From Prevotella sp. (GTDB lineage: Bacteria; Bacteroidota; Bacteroidia; Bacteroidales; Bacteroidaceae), in NCBI GenBank assembly GCA_017474515.1, contig JAFVHN010000020.1, forward strand, positions 1 through 57,809: a DNA stretch of 57,809 bases. Reading direction: 5' to 3'. The position numbers were made by a program, and so were the translations under genes. Each line of letters begins with the position of its first letter. Position 1 is the stretch's first letter. Of this stretch, positions 2,040 to 57,502 are shown in pieces. The notes under the pieces are model-generated. The model was given only the letters and a program-made list of their open reading frames with translations. It was not told the origin of the DNA and ran no database searches.

Positions 2040-3382
2040 TACCGGAAGAATTTTTCTATTTTCGACATATTGATGTTATGGCAGAACACCACGACGATGT
2101 CGCCGGCCTCTATTTGCGTGCCGCCCGACACGAGCTGTCCCTCGCCGTGGCGCACCAGTCCGCCGATGGTGGCACCTTTGGGCAGGCCGAGCTCGAAGAC
2201 TTTCTTCCGCGTCACTTTCGAGCCCTGCTGGGCGGTAAACTCCGCCACGTCGGCGTTGGCCGACATGAGGAAGCGGATGTTGTTCACGTCGGCATCCAGC
2301 ATCATCTGGTAGATATAGCTGGCCGCCAGGGCTTTCTTGTTGATGATGGTGCCGATGTCGAGGCTCTCGGCCATGCTCACATAGTCGAAGTTCTCGACCA
2401 TGGCCACCGTCTTTCTTACGCCGAGGCGCTTGGCCGTCAGGCAGGCCAGGATGTTTGTTTCGGCATTGCCGGTGAGGGCCACGAAGGCCTGCGTGTTCTT
2501 GATGCCCTCCTCGTTGAGCAACGACAGGTCGCGTCCGTCGCCGTGGATGACCATCACGCGGTCGGTGTCCACCAGCTCGTTGAGCTTCTCGCAACGGGCC
2601 TCGTCGGCCTCGAAAATCTTCACGTTCATGTATTCGGGAATCATCGCACAGGCCCTTACGGCGGTGGAGCCTCCGCCCATCACCATGACGTTTTTCACAT
2701 CGACATAATGCTCTTTTCCCACGATTTTCCTGATGTAGGGAATGTAGTTGCGGGTGGTCATGAAGTAAGCCAGGTCGTGCAACTGGAGCACATCGTCGCC
2801 CCTGGGGATGATGGTTTCGCCGCCGCGCTTGATGGCCACGATGTGATAGGGCGACTCGGGTTTGCAAAGGTCCTTGAGCGGTTCGTTCAGAATCTCGCTG
2901 GTGCTTCGCAATTTGATGCCGAGCATGACGAGTGCGCCTTCGTGAACGTCCCAACGTTGCCTCACCCACGACATTTTCAACCCGCTGGCAATGTCGCGGG
3001 CAGCCAGGTTTTCGGGGTAAATGATTGACGAGATGCCCACTTTCTCGAAGGTTTCCTTGAGTTTCGGGTCGCAATACTCATTGTTGTCAACCTTTGCCAC
3101 GGTGCGTTTGGCGCCCAAAGCCTTTGCCAGCATGCAGGCGTTCATATTGAGGTTTTCGTCGGGCGTGACGGCAATAAACAGGTCGGCCCCTGCCACCCCC
3201 GCCTCTTTCAACGTCTGAATCTTGGACGTTGAGGCCTGCACGGTCATCAGGTCGTAGTCGCTACTGATGCTTGCCAACCGCTCAATGTCGGAATCGATGA
3301 GCACGGTGTCCTGGTTGTTTCTCGACAGGAGTTTGGCCAGATGGGTGCCGATGGCGTAGGCTCCGGCAATGATAATCTTCAT
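2039..3382 (-). CDS. trkA: TrkA, cytosolic regulatory subunit of Trk potassium uptake
   Basis: Peripheral regulatory protein of the Trk K+ uptake system, 447 aa, with two RCK (TrkA-N plus TrkA-C) modules. The first nucleotide-binding fold begins [19 protein letters not shown] (glycine motif at residues 7-12); the second starts near residue 228 with [15 protein letters not shown]. It binds NAD(H) or ATP/ADP in characterised homologues and gates TrkH. The ATG overlaps the dxs stop by four bases (ATGA), and its stop overlaps the trkH start, placing it in the middle of one polycistronic unit. Family and partner are certain; the nucleotide effector cannot be read from sequence. Confidence 0.95.
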
Positions 3383-5328
3383 GATTGCTCCTTTCTTTTA
3401 ATGGTGTTTGAAAGGTTTTCCACGGCCTCCCTGATGGCTTTCTGGTCAATGCCGGCCAGCTCCTGTAGCTGCGCCACGGTGCCGTGTTCCACAAACTGGT
3501 CGGGCAGTCCGAGCCTTTCCACGCGGATGGCGTAGCCGTGGTCGTTGAGCCATTCCAGCACTGCCGAGCCCAGCCCTCCGTTTCGCACGCCGTCTTCCAC
3601 GGTGACAACGGCCCGGAAGCGTTCGCCCACTTCTTTCATTATATCTTCGTCGAGCGGTTTGAGGAAACGCATGTCGTAGTGTGCGGCCGCAATGCCCTTT
3701 GCCGCCAGCTGGTCGAGAGCCTGGGCGGCACTGTTTCCCACGGGGCCAATGGTGAGCACGGCCACCCCTTCCCCATCGCGCAATTTTCGCCCGGTGCCCA
3801 CTTTCACGGCTTCCAGGGGGCACCGCCAGTCCACCTTCACGCCGCGTCCTCGCGGGTATCTGATGACAAAGGTGCCGCGCCCGGGTTCCTGAGCCGTAAA
3901 CATCAGCCTGCGGAGCTCGTGCTCGTCCATGGGTGAGGAAATGGTAAGATTGGGAATGGGACGAAGAGCGGCCAGGTCGAAGGCCCCGTGGTGGGTGGCC
4001 CCGTCTTCGCCCACCAGTCCGGCGCGGTCTAAGCAGAGCACCACGGGCAGGCCGAGAATGGCCGCGTCGTGGATGATATTGTCGTAGGCGCGCTGGGCAA
4101 AAGCGCTATAGATGTTGCAGAACGGAATGAGCCCTTCCTTGGCCATGCCTGCCGAGAACGTTACGGCGTGCCCTTCGGCAATGCCCACGTCGAAGGCCCT
4201 TTTCGGCATTTCCTGCATCAGGATGTTCATGGAGCAGCCCGTGGGCATGGCAGGCGTAACGCCCACAATGGCAGGGTTCTGCCGTGCCAGTTCAAGAAGG
4301 GTGTGGCCAAAGACGTCTTGGAACTTCGGCGGTTTGTCGCCGGTGTCTTCCACGATGCGCTCGCCGGTGTCGGGGTCGAATTTCCCTGGTGCGTGCCACA
4401 CCGTGACATCCTTCTCGGCCGGGGCATAGCCGTGGCCTTTCTTGGTATGAAGGTGCAGCAACTTGGGGCCGCGCATGTCCTTCAGTTGTCGTAGAATCCT
4501 CACGATTTCCTTTACGTCGTGCCCGTCGAAAGGTCCGAAGTATCGGATGTTCATGCCCTCGAAAATGTTCTGCTGGTGGCTGATGGCCGATTTCAGGGCG
4601 TTGCTCAGGCGTATGATGCCGTTACGGCGCTTTTCGTCGAGCATGCCTTTGCGCCCCAGCCAGCGAGCGGCCTTGAAGCGATATTTGTTATAGGTTTCGT
4701 TGGTGCTCAGGTTGAGCAGGTATTGCTTCATGCCGCCCACCGAGCGGTCTATCGACATATTGTTGTCGTTGAGGATGATAAGCAGGTCGTTGGGCGACGA
4801 CGACACATTGTTAAGCCCCTCGAAGGCCAGGCCGCCCGACATGGCGCCGTCGCCGATGACGGCCACCACCTTGTGCTGGCTGGGTTGGCCGTTCTGCATG
4901 CTCTTCACGCGCTCGGCCACCGCCATGCCCAGTGCCGCCGAGATGCTGTTGGAGGCATGGCCGCAGGTGAAGGTGTCGTATTCGCTCTCCTTGGGCGAGG
5001 GGAAGGGCATGATGCCTCCCAGTTTCCGGTTGGTGCAGAACCGCTCGCGGCGGCCGGTGAGCATCTTGTGGCCATAAGCCTGGTGGCCCACGTCCCATAC
5101 GATGCGGTCTTCGGGCGTGTTGAACACATAGTGCAGGGCCACGGTCAGTTCCACCACGCCCAGGCTCGACGCCAGATGGCCGGGGTTCATCGACACTTGC
5201 CTGACGATGTCCTCGCGCAATTCGTCGCACACCTCGGGAAGGTCGTCAACGGCCAGGGCGCGCAGGTCGGCCGGCCAATGTATGCTGTCAAGGATGGTAT
5301 GATTCGTTTCTTCCACGATGTCGTTCAA
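3379..5328 (-). CDS. dxs: 1-deoxy-D-xylulose-5-phosphate synthase
   Basis: First enzyme of the MEP isoprenoid pathway: condenses pyruvate with glyceraldehyde-3-phosphate, using thiamine diphosphate. The TPP motif runs from GDGAMSGG to LNDNNMS, and the transketolase pyrimidine domain and C-terminal domain follow. The open frame reaches a TTG at 5350-5352 with no ATG before the conserved body. I prefer the TTG at 5326-5328 (about 649 aa), because AAGGGAG, a strong Shine-Dalgarno sequence, sits five bases before it; the upstream TTG has no such site. The stop overlaps the trkA start (ATGA). It lies downstream of a lipoprotein gene with a gap under 100 nt. Function is certain, the start is inferred. 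Confidence 0.95.
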
Positions 5329-7649: not shown

Positions 7650-7850
7650 GTCAAGATTTTTCATGGTTTTTGGGTTACTCCAAAAGGTTTGACCGCAAAT
7701 TGAGGGGAGAGATTTGCCAATTCTCTCCTCTCAAATTGCCAATTTTCTCCCCGAAATTTGCGGTCAAACTTGGCACTATTTGCAAGCCACTGATACTCAA
7801 CGCCTTACAAAACGGATGAAAAATTGGTAAAATTGTCAAGATTTTTTTAC
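7650..7850. repeat. Dispersed palindromic element, copy 1 (83-bp core at 7687-7769)
   Basis: The core starts GTTTGACCGCAAATT (7687-7701) and ends with its exact complement AATTTGCGGTCAAAC (7755-7769), 83 bp in all. Inside, the word ATTTGCCAATT/AATTGCCAATT occurs twice, separated by TCTCCTCTC-type blocks. TGTCAAGATTTTT flanks the core on both sides in the same direction (about 7650 and 7834). The element lies between convergent genes. Copies 2 and 3 are at 21.6 and 31.0 kb. Confidence 0.85.
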
Positions 7851-9985: not shown

Positions 9986-11803
9986 TTATTTTACAACGAT
10001 TTTCTTTCCATTATGAATATAGATGCCCGGTTTTTCAGGGCGTTGGCCTATTGTCCGCCCGTCGAGGGAGTGATACTTGTCGTCGGCCGCGGTTCCCTGC
10101 ATTTCGCTGATGTCGGTGGGAATGGGCTCCTGGCTGAAGTGCAGTTTCACGGTGCTATAGTTGCCAATGGGGTCTGAGCCATAAATTTGCATGATGATGC
10201 CGGTGTGTTGTTCGTCGGTGATGTTCCACGTGATGTCGTCGGCCTCTGTGACGCCTTCCGGCACTGTTATATCTTGTTCGGGATTGACGACGAACAGCAA
10301 TTTCCCGTTATAGTCCGAAACGCTGGTTCCCCCAAGTGCAGGAATATATTTTACCGGCCCGTATGCCACTGTTCCCAAAATGGCGACCAATATTTCCTCA
10401 TTGAAGTAATTTATTGGCGTCACGCCCACAGGCAGCGTTACCTTCATCGTCTTGTTGGGCTGAGCCACGTTGAACTTTATCTGAAGGCTCTGACAGTCGG
10501 GATAAGGGTCGAAGCCCAGCATGTTGATGAGGTTAAGATGCATGTTGGCGGTCAACGGTATATTGACGTTGTCGGCCGCGGTGACACCCGGAAACACGTT
10601 GATGTAATACCCTGTGGTGACCAGCAGGTATTTCTCGTTGTCTTTCACGTAGATACCACGCTCTCCTTCCTCAAAGTTCAAAAACCCGAAGTAAAGGGCC
10701 AATTCCAACATCGACGCATCTCTGCCAAATTCATCGACGTACGACATCCGCTTGGTAAACGTGAGGGCCTTGGTTTCTGAGGGCTCCCCACAGAGGAACC
10801 GCAGCGACACGCTTTTGTATTCTTCCAGCGGATCCTCGCCTTCGTATAAATTCCTCATTGCCAGGTGGTCTTCGGGGGAAAGTTCATAGCTGATGCCGTC
10901 GGCTGAGTTGACGCCGGGATAGACGGTCAAACATGGAAATTCTCCCTTCCACCACGCCAGGAGTTTCTTTCCCCCGTGGCTGAAGATGCTATAGTGGGGA
11001 TCTTCTTTCTCTTCGCGGACAAGCTGGTTGGAAACGGTCAGGGCATCCAACATATACCAAAAATAATCAGGTATTTCGCAGACATCCGTCCCCCTTTTCT
11101 TCTGTTCCCAAACAGCGGCCTTGGTTGGTTCCTGCCTTTTTTTAATGGCTACCCATTGCGATTTCACAATGTCGTCGTTGACATCGACCACGGCGCCGTC
11201 GTAGATTTTCGCCCCCTCGGGCGCGACGATTTCCAGCGGTTCCTCTAAGCCGATGCTTGCGTAATCGCAGATGGCTCCGTCGTCTCCGTAGGCATACACC
11301 TGCGTGTCTTCGCCCATGACGGCAAGGATGCAAAGGTCTGATGCGGCGAAGCCCTGCTCTCCGCCCTTTGCTTTCACAAAGGCGCCGTTTTCGATGTAAA
11401 GCCTTGTAAACTTTTCTCTTACCATGACACCCCACTGTCTGCCGTCGATGTCGAGCCGCCCGGGGCCTTCAACGTGCGTCGTCTTTATCACCTGCAATCC
11501 CGCATAGTCGCTCTTGATGGAGTTTTCGCCGAGAAGCTTCACCGTGACACCGCTTTCGCTGATAGAGAGGCCGTGGGAGGAGAGGCCAAAGGCGTTGATA
11601 TCGGCATCGTTGAGCGTCAGCACCTTGGCCACGGGGTCGTAGGTGATGGTTCCGCCCTTCACGCCCGAAATTTGCGACAGGTGGTCGATGTTGCTGCTGG
11701 TAATGCGGGTGCCCGCTATTGTAATATTATAGGTGGTGGTTTGAGCCTGGATGCCCAGGGCGCAGAACAGCACGGCAAACAATGCGATGACTGATTTTTT
11801 CAT
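9986..11803 (-). CDS. Secreted surface protein with GIYI-NGKK-VVK tail
   Basis: 605 aa from ATG 11803 (signal peptide MKKSVIALFAVLFCALGIQAQ); an in-frame ATG at 11824 is equally placed relative to the promoter, while starts further upstream lie before it. Residues about 25-160 look like a right-handed beta-helix or carbohydrate-binding fold (TYNITIAGTRITSSN, VKLLGENSIKSDYAGLQV), like part of the 42.3-kb beta-helix protein. The middle is not recognised. The C-terminus (SLDGRT...GIYIHNGKKIVVK) matches the last strands of type IX secretion sorting domains and recurs in four other proteins in this window. Probably exported to the cell surface; the ligand is unknown. Confidence 0.75.
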   Translation of the reverse strand: MKKSVIALFAVLFCALGIQAQTTTYNITIAGTRITSSNIDHLSQISGVKGGTITYDPVAKVLTLNDADINAFGLSSHGLSISESGVTVKLLGENSIKSDYAGLQVIKTTHVEGPGRLDIDGRQWGVMVREKFTRLYIENGAFVKAKGGEQGFAASDLCILAVMGEDTQVYAYGDDGAICDYASIGLEEPLEIVAPEGAKIYDGAVVDVNDDIVKSQWVAIKKRQEPTKAAVWEQKKRGTDVCEIPDYFWYMLDALTVSNQLVREEKEDPHYSIFSHGGKKLLAWWKGEFPCLTVYPGVNSADGISYELSPEDHLAMRNLYEGEDPLEEYKSVSLRFLCGEPSETKALTFTKRMSYVDEFGRDASMLELALYFGFLNFEEGERGIYVKDNEKYLLVTTGYYINVFPGVTAADNVNIPLTANMHLNLINMLGFDPYPDCQSLQIKFNVAQPNKTMKVTLPVGVTPINYFNEEILVAILGTVAYGPVKYIPALGGTSVSDYNGKLLFVVNPEQDITVPEGVTEADDITWNITDEQHTGIIMQIYGSDPIGNYSTVKLHFSQEPIPTDISEMQGTAADDKYHSLDGRTIGQRPEKPGIYIHNGKKIVVK

Positions 11804-21529: not shown

Positions 21530-21745
21530 ATCAGTAAAAATAATTTACAAAACCAGCCATTTCAGCGCACGTCCCGTAAATCGCTGAATTTCAGCGATTT
21601 GAAAATCGCGCCAAGTTTGACCGCAAATTGAGGGGAGAAATCTTCAAGTTTTCTCCTCTCAATCTTCAAAATCTCTCCTCGAAATTTGCGGTCAAACTCC
21701 AAGAGGGGTGCTTTTGGTTATGAAAAATTTTTACATTTTCATCCG
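21530..21745. repeat. Dispersed palindromic element, copy 2, inverted (83-bp core at 21615-21697)
   Basis: Same terminal 15-mers as copy 1 and the same core length of 83 bp. The inner words here are ATCTTCAA (twice). The flanks match the flanks of copy 3 only in reverse complement (for example TTATGAAAAATTTTTACA on the right), so the whole roughly 200-bp unit is inverted relative to copies 1 and 3. It sits between divergent genes. Confidence 0.8.
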
Positions 21746-30922: not shown

Positions 30923-31131
30923 ATTTTGTCAAGATTTTTCATAAGATTTCTTATAGCAAAAATAGTTTGACCGCAAATTTCGGGGAGAGATCTTGAAGAT
31001 TTCGAGGAGAGATCTTGAAGATTTCTCCCCGAAATTTGCGGTCAAACCAAGGGGTATTTTCAAGCCATTGAAAATCAACAACTTACAAAATCGGCGAAAA
31101 ATGGCCGGTTTTGTCAAAATTTTTCATAAAA
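30923..31131. repeat. Dispersed palindromic element, copy 3 (83-bp core at 30965-31047)
   Basis: The same 15-bp ends and 83-bp core as copies 1 and 2. The inner word GATCTTGAAGATTTC occurs twice. TTTTGTCAAGATTTTTCATAA (about 30924) and TTTTGTCAAAATTTTTCATAA (about 31110) bound it as direct repeats. It lies between convergent genes (metal ATPase and EamA transporter). Confidence 0.85.
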
Positions 31132-53535: not shown

Positions 53536-55395
53536 TTAAAGAGCGAGACGAAAGCCACAGTACTTACCAAATGGATCACTGTCACAGCGATAAGTTATAC
53601 GACATTCATCATCATCAGTACAGCAGCCTCCACGGTTCACCCGGGTAGTTCCTGACGATGGTCCTTCAGGATTTGTCTGGGGCACTGAACTATACTCGCC
53701 ATACCAGTCGTTGCACCACTCACGCACGTTGCCACTCATATCATAGATGCCAAGTTCGTTAGGGAGTTTCATGCCAACTTCATGGGTTGTTACTTTTTCA
53801 CAAATCATTATAGGCCTATCCTCGTAGTCTGCTGTCCACCACGCCACGCTTTCCAAGTCATCGCTTCCGGCAAATAATGTGTGGTGGCTTTTGTTGCCGC
53901 CCCGCGCGGCAAATTCCCATTCTGCCTCTGTGGGCAGACGGAAAGACAGGCCTGTTATCTTATTTAGTTTACGGATGAACTTCTGGCAGTCTTCCCAACT
54001 GATATTATCCATAGGTAGTTTTTCTCCTTCATTTCTTAAAGAGTTGCGGTTGTTCTCCTTCGAGAACTTCACAAAAGAGCGCAGTTTTTCTCCTTTAATT
54101 CTAAATGAGTTACTGTTCATAACAGAAGACCAAAGTTCTTTTGTAACTTGGGTTTCACCAATCATATAGGATGACAATGTAACTTCATGGACAGGCTGGC
54201 ATCTGCCCCAAAACCCCCATTCTTCTTCTGGTGTTTCCCCCATCATAAACGTTCCGCCTTCCACATAGACCATGTTGAAGCTCACGCCGTTGACGGTGAA
54301 CGTTTTAATCCTCGGAGTTTCGGGAGAAACATTCTTTGGTTGGGGCTTTGGATTTTGAGTTGCGTTCGCATTATTTTCGGTTCCGTGCTCCTGCTTCACA
54401 ACTGTTGCGTTGTCATCCTCAATAACTTCCGTCGAGGGCAGCTGGAATTCCGTTGCTAACTCCAGTTCTGGCAAAGGCTCCTCGCTGATTTCTTCTGATG
54501 CTGATATTTGGGGCAGAAGCCGAAGAAACTCCGAGGCATCTGTGGGACGGTCATTGGGGTTGGGTTTCATGCAACGGTGGATGAGCAGCCACAGGTTTTC
54601 GGGAATGGTGGAAGGTCGATCAGCGGGCAACACCTTATTTATATTAAAAGAGGCCTTGCCGGGGCTTTTGCCCGTGAGCAGGAAATAAAGGGTGGCCGCG
54701 AGAGCGTAAACGTCAGTCTGCGGGGAAAAACTCTCTACACTGTCGGTAGCCTGTTCCAAGGGGGCGTACCCCTCGCTGGTACCCATGAAGAGAACGTCAC
54801 TGGTGTGGCGGTTGTCCTTGCCGTAGTGCTTGGCAATGCCGAAGTCGATGAGCACCGCCTGTCCCTCCGCACCGAGCATCACGTTGCCGGGCTTCACGTC
54901 AAAGTGGCAAAGCTTATGGTTGTGCATGTACTGTAAGGCGCTGGCCACCTCGGAAATACGTCTCGTGGCCTTGGAAGCGGGCAGGGGACCGTTCTTTAAG
55001 ACATAACCCTCCAGGCTGCCGCCGGGCAAGAAATCCATGACGATGTATTCAGTGTCGTTCTCGCTGAACAGGTCGATGACGTGGACAATGTTGTCGTGCC
55101 TCATTTGCGAGAGATTAGTGGCCTCCTTGCGGAACTTTTTCAGGCCGCGCTCCACGGTGTCGTCGAACTTGCGCGAAACAACGGTCATTGTGCGCCCGTT
55201 GCTGTCTCGGTCACAGCATGTTCCTATGAAGAACTCCTTCACCACCACGTCGGCCTGCGTGGTCACGGTGCCCAAGCCGCGCTTCACCTCCACACGCATG
55301 GTGGCCAGGTAGGTGATGCCCATGCCGCCCTGTCCCAGTTTCTTCTTGATGACATATTCGCCGCCTTTAAGAGAGGTGCCGTTTCTTAGTTCCAT
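53536..55395 (-). CDS. Ser/Thr protein kinase fused to a formylglycine-generating-enzyme-like domain
   Basis: 619 aa. Kinase: glycine loop GQGGMG (21-26), Lys53 in VVVKEFF, Glu91 of helix C, catalytic loop HFDVKPGN (164-171; Phe replaces Arg of HRD), DFG 184-186, MGTSEGYAPLEQ activation segment. A linker (about 300-370) rich in Glu/Asn/Pro has no membrane helix. From about 375 a SUMF1/EgtB/PvdO-like domain follows: FNMVYVEGGTFMMGE, ETQVTKELW, PMDNISWEDC, FRLPTEAEWEFAARGG, DMSGNVREWCNDW. The usual RGGSW end reads RGGCCTDDDECRITYR here. The FGE half is AT-richer than the kinase half. Substrates are unknown. Confidence 0.9.
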   Translation of the reverse strand: MELRNGTSLKGGEYVIKKKLGQGGMGITYLATMRVEVKRGLGTVTTQADVVVKEFFIGTCCDRDSNGRTMTVVSRKFDDTVERGLKKFRKEATNLSQMRHDNIVHVIDLFSENDTEYIVMDFLPGGSLEGYVLKNGPLPASKATRRISEVASALQYMHNHKLCHFDVKPGNVMLGAEGQAVLIDFGIAKHYGKDNRHTSDVLFMGTSEGYAPLEQATDSVESFSPQTDVYALAATLYFLLTGKSPGKASFNINKVLPADRPSTIPENLWLLIHRCMKPNPNDRPTDASEFLRLLPQISASEEISEEPLPELELATEFQLPSTEVIEDDNATVVKQEHGTENNANATQNPKPQPKNVSPETPRIKTFTVNGVSFNMVYVEGGTFMMGETPEEEWGFWGRCQPVHEVTLSSYMIGETQVTKELWSSVMNSNSFRIKGEKLRSFVKFSKENNRNSLRNEGEKLPMDNISWEDCQKFIRKLNKITGLSFRLPTEAEWEFAARGGNKSHHTLFAGSDDLESVAWWTADYEDRPIMICEKVTTHEVGMKLPNELGIYDMSGNVREWCNDWYGEYSSVPQTNPEGPSSGTTRVNRGGCCTDDDECRITYRCDSDPFGKYCGFRLAL

Positions 55396-55415
55396 ATTCT
55401 ATTAGTTTGTCGGTG

Positions 55416-55447
55416 CAAAAATACGAAAAAAAAGGAGAATTGGCAAA
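55416..55447 (-). promoter_or_regulatory. Promoter of the kinase gene
   Basis: Minus strand TTTG (55444-55447), 20 bp, TATTTTTG (55416-55423), ending 20 bp before the ATG. Confidence 0.8.
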
Positions 55448-55604
55448 AGAATACCAATTTTTCTTCTACAGCCTTTTCACACATCTCCTTAAAATACCAT
55501 AAAGTCCGTAGAAAAACGAGCGCACTCTCCTTAGAGAATAAATCTCCATGGAAAAAACCATTTCCCCTAATAAAACATGTTTTTGGGTGTTGTCCGCCGC
55601 CGTT

Positions 55605-55724
55605 CTGCCGAATTTGCAATTCGGCAGTGGCGAGTATCAGCATTTGCAATGCGCAATAAGCGTCACCGCCTTTTCTTCGGATTATAAATCCTTATACTCA
55701 CGTTTGGCGAATTGCAAATTCGCC
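55605..55724. repeat. Hairpins with a TGC/GCA loop, palindromes around TTTGCAA
   Basis: Three palindromes share a TGC or GCA loop: 55605-55627 (10-bp arms CTGCCGAATT/AATTCGGCAG), 55640-55652 (GCATT/AATGC) and 55706-55724 (GGCGAATT/AATTCGCC). A related TGCAA-A-TTGCA lies at 56026-56036. They sit upstream of the kinase promoter and next to the TGATAC array. A separate inverted repeat, GAAACATG (55742-55749)/CATGTTTC (55770-55777), follows. Confidence 0.75.
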
Positions 55725-55793
55725 GGAACAGGTTTTTGCACGAAACATGCAGTTCTCGTCGTGTTTTTACATGTTTCAAAAACCATTGTTCAA

Positions 55794-56002
55794 TGGAACT
55801 CGCAGTATCAACATTTTTTTTAGTCTGATACTGTCAGTATCAAAATATTTTTTCCCTGATACTGTCAGTATCAAAATTTTTATAGGCGTGATACAAAGAG
55901 TATCAAGATTTTTTATTGCGTGATACAAGGAGTATCACCGCATGATACTGTGAGTATCATTGAATGATACAGTGAGTATCTTTGCATGATACTCGGAATA
56001 AC
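55794..56002. repeat. Array of TGATAC-N5-GTATCA palindromes with regular spacing
   Basis: Full units of 17 bp start at 55826, 55857, 55889, 55921 and 55943; near-full or degenerate units start at 55794, 55965 and 55987. Steps are 32, 31, 32, 32, 22, 22 and 22 bp, that is about three or two helical turns, so all units face the same side of the helix. The five centre bases vary (TGTCA, TGTCA, AAAGA, AAGGA, TGTGA, AGTGA), and AT-rich spacers (ATTTTTT) fill the gaps. No open frame crosses it. Confidence 0.85.
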
Positions 56003-56040
56003 TTATTAGAGAAAATGCTGTAAGTTGCAAATTGCACGGC

Positions 56041-57447
56041 TCATTTTGCAGTGCCGACGAGGGTTTTCATCCAGTTGCCCCGCAACAGACGCAGGAGGAA
56101 GATGCCCCCGCGGAAGGTCAGCTCCACAGCCATGGCGAACCACACCCCGCGCAGCCCATAGTCGCGCGCCAGCCACGCCGCCAGGGTGAGGCGCACCAGC
56201 CACATGGAGCACAGGTTCATGATGGCGGGCTTCAACGTGTCGCCGGCTCCCACGAACACGCTATAGCACACGATGGAGGCCGCGAACATCGGCTCGGCAA
56301 ACGCCTCGATGCGAAGGCAGAAGGCCCCCAGCCCGCAAATCTCGGCCACCGGCGTCATCAGCGCCATCAGTTCATAGGCCGACACATACATCACCAGTCC
56401 CATCAGCGCCATGACAATCATCCCCGACGCCACCGTCATGCGTGCAAACGAGCGGCACAGGTCGCCGCGCCGTGCCCCCATGCTCTGGCCAATCAGCGTG
56501 GTGGCCGCCTCGCCGATGCCGTAGCCCGGCATGTAGCAAAGGCTCTCGGCAGTGATGGCAAAGGTGTTGGCGGCGATGGAGATGTTGCCCAGCGGCGCCA
56601 CAATCATGGTGCTCACGATTTGCGCACCGCTCATCAGAATGGACTGGCAGGCCATGGGGATGCTGATTTTCAAGGCATTGCGCACATAGTTCCACTGCCA
56701 GGCGAACCGTTCGCCCAAACGGCCGCGGAGCGAGAGCATGTCGCTGCGGAAAATGGCAAAGTAGGCCTGCACCACCGCACCGATGACGACGGCCATGCCC
56801 GTGCCCAGGGCCACGCCCAGCACGCCGAGGTGGAACACAAAGATGAGGATGAAGTTGAAACACACGTCGAGCACGCACATCAGCACGCTCATGATGCTCG
56901 GGATGCGCATGTTGCCCGAACATTTCAGCATGGCCCCCGAGAGCCCGCTCAGCTGGAAGAAGGGCATGACGAGCATGAAAACGCCGAAATAAATGGAGGC
57001 GTCGTGCGCAATGTCGGCACCGCCGCCCAGCCAGAACGGCAGGCGACCGCTGATGAGGAGTCCCACCACGCCGACCACCGCGCTGAACAGCAACGCGCAC
57101 ACCAGGGCATGGCGGAACACGCTCCGCGCCCGCGAAAAGTCGTTGGCGCCGATGAAATGGGCCACTTGCACCGAAAAGCCCATCGACATGGCACTGGTCA
57201 GGCTGCCGCACAGCCATGTGCTCGACTCCACCAGCCCGCAGGCCGCCGCCGCCTCCACGCCGATGCGCCCCACCATGGCCTGGTCGATGAAAAACATCAT
57301 CACGCTGGTGATTTGCGCCAGGATGGAGGGAATGCTCAGCTGGAAAATGAGGTTCAGCTTCTGACCGCGCGTCATCGGGCGGCCCGCGCGTATCATCTCA
57401 AGCAGCAGGTCGCTCGTCTTCGCTCGTTTCGTCTTGGGGGATGTCAT
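56041..57447 (-). CDS. MATE-family multidrug/Na+ efflux transporter
   Basis: 468 aa from ATG 57447 (MTSPKTKRAKTSDLL); the frame is open to 57501, but that lies inside the promoter. Twelve membrane helices in two MatE repeats: IPSILAQITSVMMFFIDQAMVG opens repeat 1, and ISIPMACQSILMSGAQIVSTMIV opens repeat 2. GQSMGARRGD is the typical loop between helices. MATE proteins use Na+ or H+ gradients to expel organic cations and drugs; the substrate is unknown. The gene has its own promoter and ends 38 bp from the palindrome array. Confidence 0.9.
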   Translation of the reverse strand: MTSPKTKRAKTSDLLLEMIRAGRPMTRGQKLNLIFQLSIPSILAQITSVMMFFIDQAMVGRIGVEAAAACGLVESSTWLCGSLTSAMSMGFSVQVAHFIGANDFSRARSVFRHALVCALLFSAVVGVVGLLISGRLPFWLGGGADIAHDASIYFGVFMLVMPFFQLSGLSGAMLKCSGNMRIPSIMSVLMCVLDVCFNFILIFVFHLGVLGVALGTGMAVVIGAVVQAYFAIFRSDMLSLRGRLGERFAWQWNYVRNALKISIPMACQSILMSGAQIVSTMIVAPLGNISIAANTFAITAESLCYMPGYGIGEAATTLIGQSMGARRGDLCRSFARMTVASGMIVMALMGLVMYVSAYELMALMTPVAEICGLGAFCLRIEAFAEPMFAASIVCYSVFVGAGDTLKPAIMNLCSMWLVRLTLAAWLARDYGLRGVWFAMAVELTFRGGIFLLRLLRGNWMKTLVGTAK

Positions 57448-57470
57448 CGGGGATGGTGTCTTTTGGACGG

Positions 57471-57502
57471 CAAAGTTACTTATAATTCCGCAGAAAGCCA
57501 AA
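57471..57502 (-). promoter_or_regulatory. Promoter of the MATE gene
   Basis: Minus strand TTTG (57499-57502), 20 bp, TAACTTTG (57471-57478): full consensus. ATG 57447 follows 24 bp later. Confidence 0.8.

Follow-up and report, generated by a model that had tools for sequence, protein, structure and literature searches.

Helically phased repeats served by a small, cooperative DNA-binding protein that is encoded adjacent to them are known from iterons, from parC and parS and from multi-operator arrays (ParR, TubR and the omega repressor). In REPIN-RAYT systems, as outlined by their authors, the RAYTs, a kind of tyrosine transposase, have REP doublets as their substrate (Bertels & Rainey 2011, PMC3116915). 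Rickettsia palindromic elements are summarised as about 150 bp in length, with a conserved peptide, and as occurring both in frame within protein genes and at other places (PMC10969869). The BrickBuilt MITE of Porphyromonas gingivalis is summarised as a 23-nt tandem repeat with 19 genome copies, a leader, a tail and IS5-family-like terminal inverted repeats (PMC4596501). A 188-bp repeat of Prevotella, as outlined in its source, is different from the arrays considered here (PMC4755523). The array described below is read, at a probability of roughly 0.7, as a platform for several dimers of a DUF6078 protein, whose cognate gene would be the one on contig C104 of the same genome (G000).

The window (the whole stretch of DNA analysed, 57,809 nucleotides) contains an array of dyads of the type TGATAC-N5-GTATCA (Table 1). 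The eight 17-bp sites, five of them perfect, that had been described in a sequence-only reading of this DNA were recovered, and their spacings of 32, 31, 32, 32, 22, 22 and 22 bp were reproduced exactly; Tandem Repeats Finder gave periods of 31/32 bp first and of 22 bp after. When the window was scanned for 11-bp-stepped palindromes without regard to their sequence, the array was the peak (29 of 30 pairs), the sole other place with a score of at least 21 being position 30985 (score 24), a 22-bp repeat of different sequence within a long inverted repeat. Sites with up to three mismatches numbered 17 in the whole window against 10.3 expected, which is not significant alone. The array is confirmed as real: its exact sites and its phasing stand out, whereas the loose site count does not.

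Two kinds of dyad are present, divergent (TGATAC-N5-GTATCA) and convergent (GTATCA-N5-TGATAC). Because the convergent arrangement is a second dyad, the 22-bp part of the array is an unbroken alternation of half-sites at every 11 bp; spacer and centre both measure 5 bp there, and the half-sites therefore flip orientation every 11 bp. In the 31/32-bp part the convergent dyad alone is longer, the excess being close to one turn of the helix. Divergent centres are 5 bp in six of six cases, and convergent centres are 15, 14, 15 and 15 bp and then 5 bp three times. The spacers, described earlier as AT-rich, fit that description up to the fifth site, where they measure 14-15 bp and are T-rich on the forward strand, but not among the last ones, where they are 5 bp. 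The array was rightly called unlike CRISPR, as it consists of inverted dyads mostly 5 bp apart and not of direct repeats with long unique spacers.

Table 1. Coordinates in the window of the dyad array, its sites and the flanking genes.
Feature	Position	Strand	Remarks
Ser/Thr kinase gene with C-terminal FGE-sulfatase domain (PF00069 + PF03781)	53536..55395	-	start codon ~400 bp from array
Dyad array, eight TGATAC-N5-GTATCA-type sites, half-site GTATCA	55794..56003	no strand	site scan and 11-bp palindrome scan
Imperfect dyad, kinase-proximal end	55794..55810	no strand	2 mismatches
Perfect dyad 1	55826..55842	no strand	TGATACTGTCAGTATCA
Perfect dyad 2	55857..55873	no strand	TGATACTGTCAGTATCA
Perfect dyad 3	55889..55905	no strand	
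Perfect dyad 4	55921..55937	no strand	start of 22-bp spacing
Perfect dyad 5	55943..55959	no strand	
Imperfect dyads, MATE-proximal end	55965..56003	no strand	1 mismatch (55965) and 3 mismatches (55987)
MATE-family transporter gene (PF01554)	56041..57501	-	stop codon ~37 bp from array

The kinase promoter had been placed about 350 bp away; measured from the start codon of the kinase gene, at 55395 on the minus strand, the distance is somewhat larger. A DNA stretch elsewhere in the source genome (C41:675-1346) is 75% identical to part of the kinase gene. A half-site reported at 55634-55639 is present in the sequence (GAGTATCA, 55632-55639) but is part of a separate imperfect palindrome of 131 bp (55600-55733) of the GAATTTGCAATTCGCC / GAGTATAAGG type. 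About 80% identical copies of this palindrome were found on five other contigs of the source genome (C48, C88, C107, C22 and C92) and weaker ones in relatives; it is classed as REP- or MITE-like.

The source genome comprises 3.51 Mb in 118 contigs and is 88% complete. The genome-wide scan that had been proposed for the 17-mer yielded nine exact forward-strand copies, clustered as five (window) and three (C104:73435-73495) with one alone (C100), versus none for the reversed control; with one mismatch allowed the counts were 15 versus 4. A mutated dyad was seen on contig C66. The three copies on C104 belong to an array about 40 bp 3' of a gene of the DUF6078 family (2945-3397 of locus L005). This array has four dyads (exact ones at 3436-3496 of L005, a one-mismatch dyad extending to 3518), and its half-sites, TGATAC/GTATCA in six of the six listed, are those of the window array. 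Because its neighbours are the MATE and kinase genes, with no adjoining DUF6078 gene, the window array is named a satellite. The source genome encodes two DUF6078 proteins, on C104 and C53; directly 3' of the C53 gene (L089, oriented 3457-3531) lies a 22-bp repeat which differs in sequence from the GTATCA array. Three further 22-bp tandem repeats occur in the window (7712-7761, 21639-21680 and 30977-31025, the last scoring 24 in the 11-bp scan), have the words GGAGAGAT and TCTCTCC in common and are possibly arrays of another DUF6078-like protein.

Among 59 relatives the exact 17-mer was found in 18, once each apart from two that carry it twice at distant places, and there were no clusters of the exact GTATCA half-site pair; in one of these relatives (locus L021, genome G003) the exact 17-mer is set among dyads with other half-sites. 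Absence from near relatives, named in the sequence-only reading as a point against the array, is found for clusters of the exact half-site but not for the architecture, which is widespread across the genus in versions with other half-sites.

For a gene-blind discovery, one genome per species was scanned for three consecutive half-sites (18 fixed bases, 257 billion bases). The scan returned 15 stretches, with a chance expectation of about four by arithmetic estimate; seven were in Bacteroidales, and in most of these seven the alternation visibly continues. A DUF6078 gene adjoins three of the seven (L037, L039 and L042), and the family is encoded by four of the five Bacteroidales genomes behind the stretches versus none of the eight other genomes (p = 0.007). 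The DUF6078 proteins at C104, L037 and L039 are only 27-29% identical.

DUF6078 (PF19555) proteins are about 145 amino acids long. All 38 aligned proteins matched PF19555, the best E-value among 20 other families being 0.016, with none of them a transposase; four Cys, a single Gly and the initiating Met never vary across the alignment. Profile searches (Pfam, NCBIfam, PHROG, PADLOC and PDB) gave no support for an HTH or a metal site, and no match to a nuclease, HUH or recombinase family. An AlphaFold model built from two sequences was unusable (mean pLDDT 41.6). The protein may have a metal site and an HTH, to judge from a motif which by eye is taken to resemble the latter. A literature search in one open-access collection returned nothing on DUF6078, on PF19555 or on Bacteroides with BT4734.

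PF19555 is present in 24 of 60 relatives, all of the window's genus; within that genus, 35 of 60 genomes carry it. Of 53 matches in a first set, 50 were examined (three short fragments were dropped), one of them (L106) without 3' sequence. A palindrome score of at least 20 of 30 was reached within the 3' 400 bp of 27 of 49 genes versus the 5' 400 bp of 3 of 49; 20 shuffles per 3' flank gave best scores of 15-21. A fresh set of 20 of 22 new matches (G066:C3 and a G062 fragment were left out; L155 has only 20 bp of 3' sequence) contained 10 genes with such a score in the 3' 400 bp, plus one with an array near 5' (L166) and two far 5' (L158 and L162). The whole first-set loci (186,938 bases) held 35 arrays scoring at least 21 versus 0.33 in Markov shuffles, and 29 comparison loci of relatives (96,218 bases) held two, both in L021 of a DUF6078-bearing genome. 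When the step was varied over 70 loci at a threshold of 22, 11 bp gave 41 arrays and steps of 8, 9, 10, 12, 13, 14, 15, 17 and 20 bp gave 0-1. Tandem Repeats Finder, which takes no account of palindromes, reported 66 repeats with a period of 21-23 bp in the 54.6 kb around DUF6078 genes versus 17 in 187 kb further off, with no similar rise near the genes for periods of 15-20 or 24-30 bp. As the strict 11-bp scan misses imperfect arrays (C53 of the source genome, L169 of Bacteroides cutis), repeat-finder counts were therefore added; by either method an array accompanies 54 of 70 DUF6078 loci, nearly all within 400 bp, five being counted through arrays more than 400 bp 5'. Among the remaining 16 loci are fragments of genes, loci at contig ends and some whose arrays lie further off.

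Beyond the genus, plasmid and phage records supplied eight DUF6078 loci, five of which scored at least 20 in the 3' 600 bp, namely Parabacteroides distasonis (L121), Treponema saccharophilum plasmid pTS1 (L124) and three gut 'phage' scaffolds (L125, L127 and L128); scores were lower at Bacteroides finegoldii (L122), at a further copy in P. distasonis (L123) and at scaffold L126. On the spirochaete plasmid (L124, 1922-2480) the DUF6078 gene is followed 3' by a GTTTCA repeat (score 21, versus 19 on the 5' side), which suggests horizontal transfer as a gene-array unit outside Bacteroidota. B. cutis has four DUF6078 genes, whose 3' repeats read by eye as GTGCCA, GTTCYC, GTTTCC and ATACC, the last alone passing the strict scan. 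A viral origin was considered and rejected: the exact 17-mer occurs in 14 stretches of IMG/VR, in single copy each, and the three-half-site pattern in two. Three scans of IMG/VR with short-peptide patterns, a weak test, did not find DUF6078. Five phage records contain the family; the four inspected are unverified gut scaffolds, and these records may represent bacterial DNA. A viral contig retrieved through the array pattern (L057) has palindromes stepped by 11 bp at about 340-470 and at 11500 (scores 21-22).

Half-sites were extracted by strict criteria from 41 of 64 full-length DUF6078 genes, the other 23 giving none. The words include GTATCA, GTYTCA, GTCCCA, RTTCCC, TTACCR and GTACCA, and further TTTTCT, GTTTCT, GTACGT, TGCCCA and GTGCAR. 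Protein identity and half-site similarity were correlated (Mantel rho 0.29, 0 of 1000 permutations), also among 32 representatives below 60% identity (rho 0.23, 11 of 2000 permutations), a signal that may come in part from common ancestry of gene and flank. By region, the correlation was 0.33 for C-terminal residues 93-125 and 0.20-0.21 elsewhere. This contrast between protein regions, together with a specificity switch, is a stronger point than the overall correlation. The switch was seen in a subset picked post hoc, 11 proteins with GxG[ST]YY: the seven in which Arg is next have mostly TACC (base 5 = C), and the four with Leu, Cys or His, from three lineages, show A at that base in every listed half-site (p = 0.003, or 0.008 after merging two near-identical rows). 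Exceptions are TACA in two of six half-sites of L061 and one of six of L062; outside the subset, L081 combines Arg with A at this base, and the YYE clade does not follow the rule cleanly. At the level of sequence, the half-site is specific to the paralogue and co-varies with DUF6078, most of all with the C-terminal YYRY segment.

Dyad spacing was counted in 46 of 48 arrays, two having too few pairs (L124 and L035). The divergent centre is 5 bp in 133 of 138 dyads (otherwise 3, 4 or 14 bp), the convergent centre in 154 of 172 (otherwise 6, 7, 14, 15 or 17 bp); the difference has p = 0.028, with counts that lack independence because related arrays contribute to them. A fixed divergent and a variable convergent centre are clearest in the window array. 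This pattern argues for a model in which the divergent dyad would hold a dimer and the convergent gap would be a stretchable contact between dimers.

A pattern for RTTCCC arrays was found in 12 of 60 genomes of the genus, with up to 43 forward matches (G035), and the reversed control gave 0 in 60. DUF6078 is encoded by 11 of these 12 genomes versus 24 of the 48 others (p = 0.01). All genomes with a gene-linked RTTCCC-type array (G018, G020, G025, G031, G033, G035 and G074) have additional places elsewhere, as does G007, whose linked array has the related word GTTYCC; the places number at least 12 in G035 and at least 10 in G020, gene-linked ones included. Arrays are dispersed through genomes which encode a paralogue with the matching half-site. 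Arrays without a matching DUF6078 gene were found in G075 (RTTCCC, no DUF6078) and in the goat-rumen genome RGIG3537, and G013 and G006 have RTTCCC matches, but DUF6078 genes only of other words; assembly gaps possibly lie behind the missing matches. In G031 (C105:1262-1515) a DUF6078 remnant of 43 residues lies beside an RTTCCC array, which may have outlived its gene.

Among 20 satellites retrieved (10 from G035, 9 from G020 and 1 from G007), six lie in frame within conserved genes (GH106, a PG_1098-like methyltransferase, ABC-F, GH97, an acyltransferase and RsmF). Some of the 20 lie between convergent genes and two 5' of BT4734-like genes, and the neighbours of others are in mixed orientations. 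Comparison with homologues places the satellites of RsmF and of the methyltransferase in a linker of variable length that has other sequence in most species, and both were likely inserted; for each gene one other species seems, by eye, to retain a decayed array copy. Set against L223-L235 and L237-L249, the linkers of RsmF (L148) and the methyltransferase (L137) differ in length, several species hold different short repeats there, and these linkers are possible hot spots for in-frame insertion of tandem DNA. One intergenic satellite occupies the same site in G020 and G013, with arms intact and spacers changed, and is absent from eight other species. From these comparisons it follows that satellites come and go, that some at least are inherited and that promoter control is unlikely as their general role.

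Genes next to DUF6078 were scanned at 39 loci (38 of 47 called, plus P. distasonis), and previous genes at 37 of 48. Among the next genes 10 match BT4734-like_N and 10 VapE-like, and 5 of the 37 previous genes match VapE-like; in L093 and L096 a gene of the VapE/BT4734 kind precedes DUF6078 and the array lies 5' of DUF6078. In P. distasonis an array lies between the gene for the DUF6078 protein WP_011966740.1 and a BT4734 gene. An array-bearing DUF6078 locus usually lacks a neighbour of this kind. At 22 of 30 BT4734 loci there is no array scoring at least 20; since most BT4734 genes lack an array, VapE/BT4734 is regarded as a frequent client and not as the partner of the arrays. No ParA/ParM or Rep partner was present among the Pfam matches listed for DUF6078 neighbours.

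Linkage of gene and array, fixed geometry, paralogue-specific words, their co-variation with the protein and dispersal of the arrays are all established from the sequences. Direct recognition of the array by DUF6078 is considered highly probable, and the placement of its dimers on one face of the DNA probable. A dimer would bind the divergent dyad TGxxAC-N5-GTxxCA, through the C-terminal YYRY segment as a putative reading helix and with the four Cys as candidate ligands of a metal; adjacent dimers would touch across the convergent dyad, which would tolerate 5, 6 or 14-15 bp so that all dimers stay on one face. The stiff, cooperative nucleoprotein stretch expected to result might control its own neighbourhood, in a minority of cases a VapE/BT4734 primase-helicase gene, and bound satellites might mark dispersed places of the chromosome. 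As to function, local control or chromosome organisation is given about an even chance, with selfish spread ranked next. On a wider view, which could equally well hold or fail, DUF6078 and its arrays would make up a system of protein-DNA pairs, so far unrecognised in Bacteroidales and with a readable specificity code, in which each paralogue has its own 6-bp word, an array stepped by 11 bp beside its gene, satellites elsewhere and a filament of dimers on one face. Words would diversify through the short C-terminal reading segment, so that several systems could coexist in one cell without crosstalk, as may be the case for the four DUF6078 genes of B. cutis.

The arrays could instead be a selfish palindromic repeat, small mobile DNA whose spread is aided by DUF6078 as that of REPINs is by RAYT, binding then serving dispersal. 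The scatter of satellites with the paralogue's half-site over G035 and G020, the six in-frame copies inside conserved genes and the 45-bp flanks of 19 arrays, which have no 12-mer common to three or more, would suit such an origin. DUF6078, however, matches none of the nuclease, HUH or recombinase families, no terminal repeats or target duplications were seen (at homologous sites too diverged to show or exclude them), and the satellite kept by G020 and G013 has held its site while its spacers diverged; selfish spread is accordingly considered unlikely, if worth bearing in mind. A replication module, with the arrays as iterons, DUF6078 as initiator and VapE/BT4734 as helicase-primase of a decayed or integrated satellite replicon, would account for the VapE-like and BT4734-like neighbours and for the 5' arrays of L093 and L096. 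It is improbable in view of the many array-bearing loci without such a neighbour, the BT4734 loci without arrays and the dispersed, gene-less satellites, which do not suit origins.

A cooperative repressor had been suggested in the sequence-only reading, besides a nucleoid organiser or a partition/replication-type site, with a protein that could bind all sites on one face. The one-face binder fits the data and has a strong candidate in DUF6078, but a role as repressor of the kinase gene is not supported: the phased dyads do lie 5' of the kinase gene, yet the array sits just 3' of the MATE gene, none of the MATE homologues in 11 relatives has a 3' array (best palindrome scores 14-18), and other arrays lie between convergent genes or inside genes, all of which makes an operator array for cooperative repression or activation of the kinase or other neighbours very improbable. 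Slightly less credit still is given to a role in RNA, as hairpins that terminate or stabilise transcripts or as RNA bound by DUF6078. The minus-strand transcript folds at -72.4 kcal/mol (z -9.2 versus shuffles) and arrays lie mostly 3' of the DUF6078 gene, but good folding is expected of any palindrome array, the exact 11-bp step of both dyads is a constraint of the DNA helix and not of RNA, satellites have no fixed strand or position, and a search of 55400-56200 against Rfam gave a single, weak match (E 0.41). Least probable of all is a neutral minisatellite, in which slippage yields 22-bp repeats and the palindromes are meaningless; near-identical units in some arrays (L133) and the imperfect units at both ends of the window array recall slippage, whereas conserved arms with variable centres, paired arm changes (L028, L063 and L064), the tie to one gene family and co-variation with the DUF6078 C-terminus do not.

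With the reading as a DUF6078 platform, most genes of a family without assigned function carry a predicted binding site alongside, and dozens of natural gene-array pairs form a data set for a protein-DNA recognition code. A class of 22-bp repeats found in these genomes, partly within proteins, is also accounted for by the pairing. Should the arrays organise or regulate the chromosome, they would represent a new kind of nucleoprotein structure for bacteria of a major gut phylum; should they spread, they would be a repeat system served by a protein without recognisable transposase identity.

Unlike iteron and partition arrays, DUF6078 arrays are chromosomal, have one word per paralogue and are accompanied by dispersed satellites. 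As in REPIN-RAYT systems in the outline cited, one gene is tied to its own palindromic repeat, repeats are lineage-specific and copies are dispersed; in contrast to them, DUF6078 has no transposase domain match and its repeats form phased arrays stepped by 11 bp (PMC3116915). In-frame, intragenic palindromic copies are a likeness to the Rickettsia palindromic elements as summarised, which differ from 22-bp arrays paired with a gene family (PMC10969869). BrickBuilt is likewise a short tandem repeat of Bacteroidales in many places, but in the summary cited it is described without a partner gene or palindromes (PMC4596501). With the transposase of REPIN-RAYT missing and no clear place among the other systems, the pairing of DUF6078 with its arrays is therefore rated a new kind, for each single ingredient of which there are precedents.
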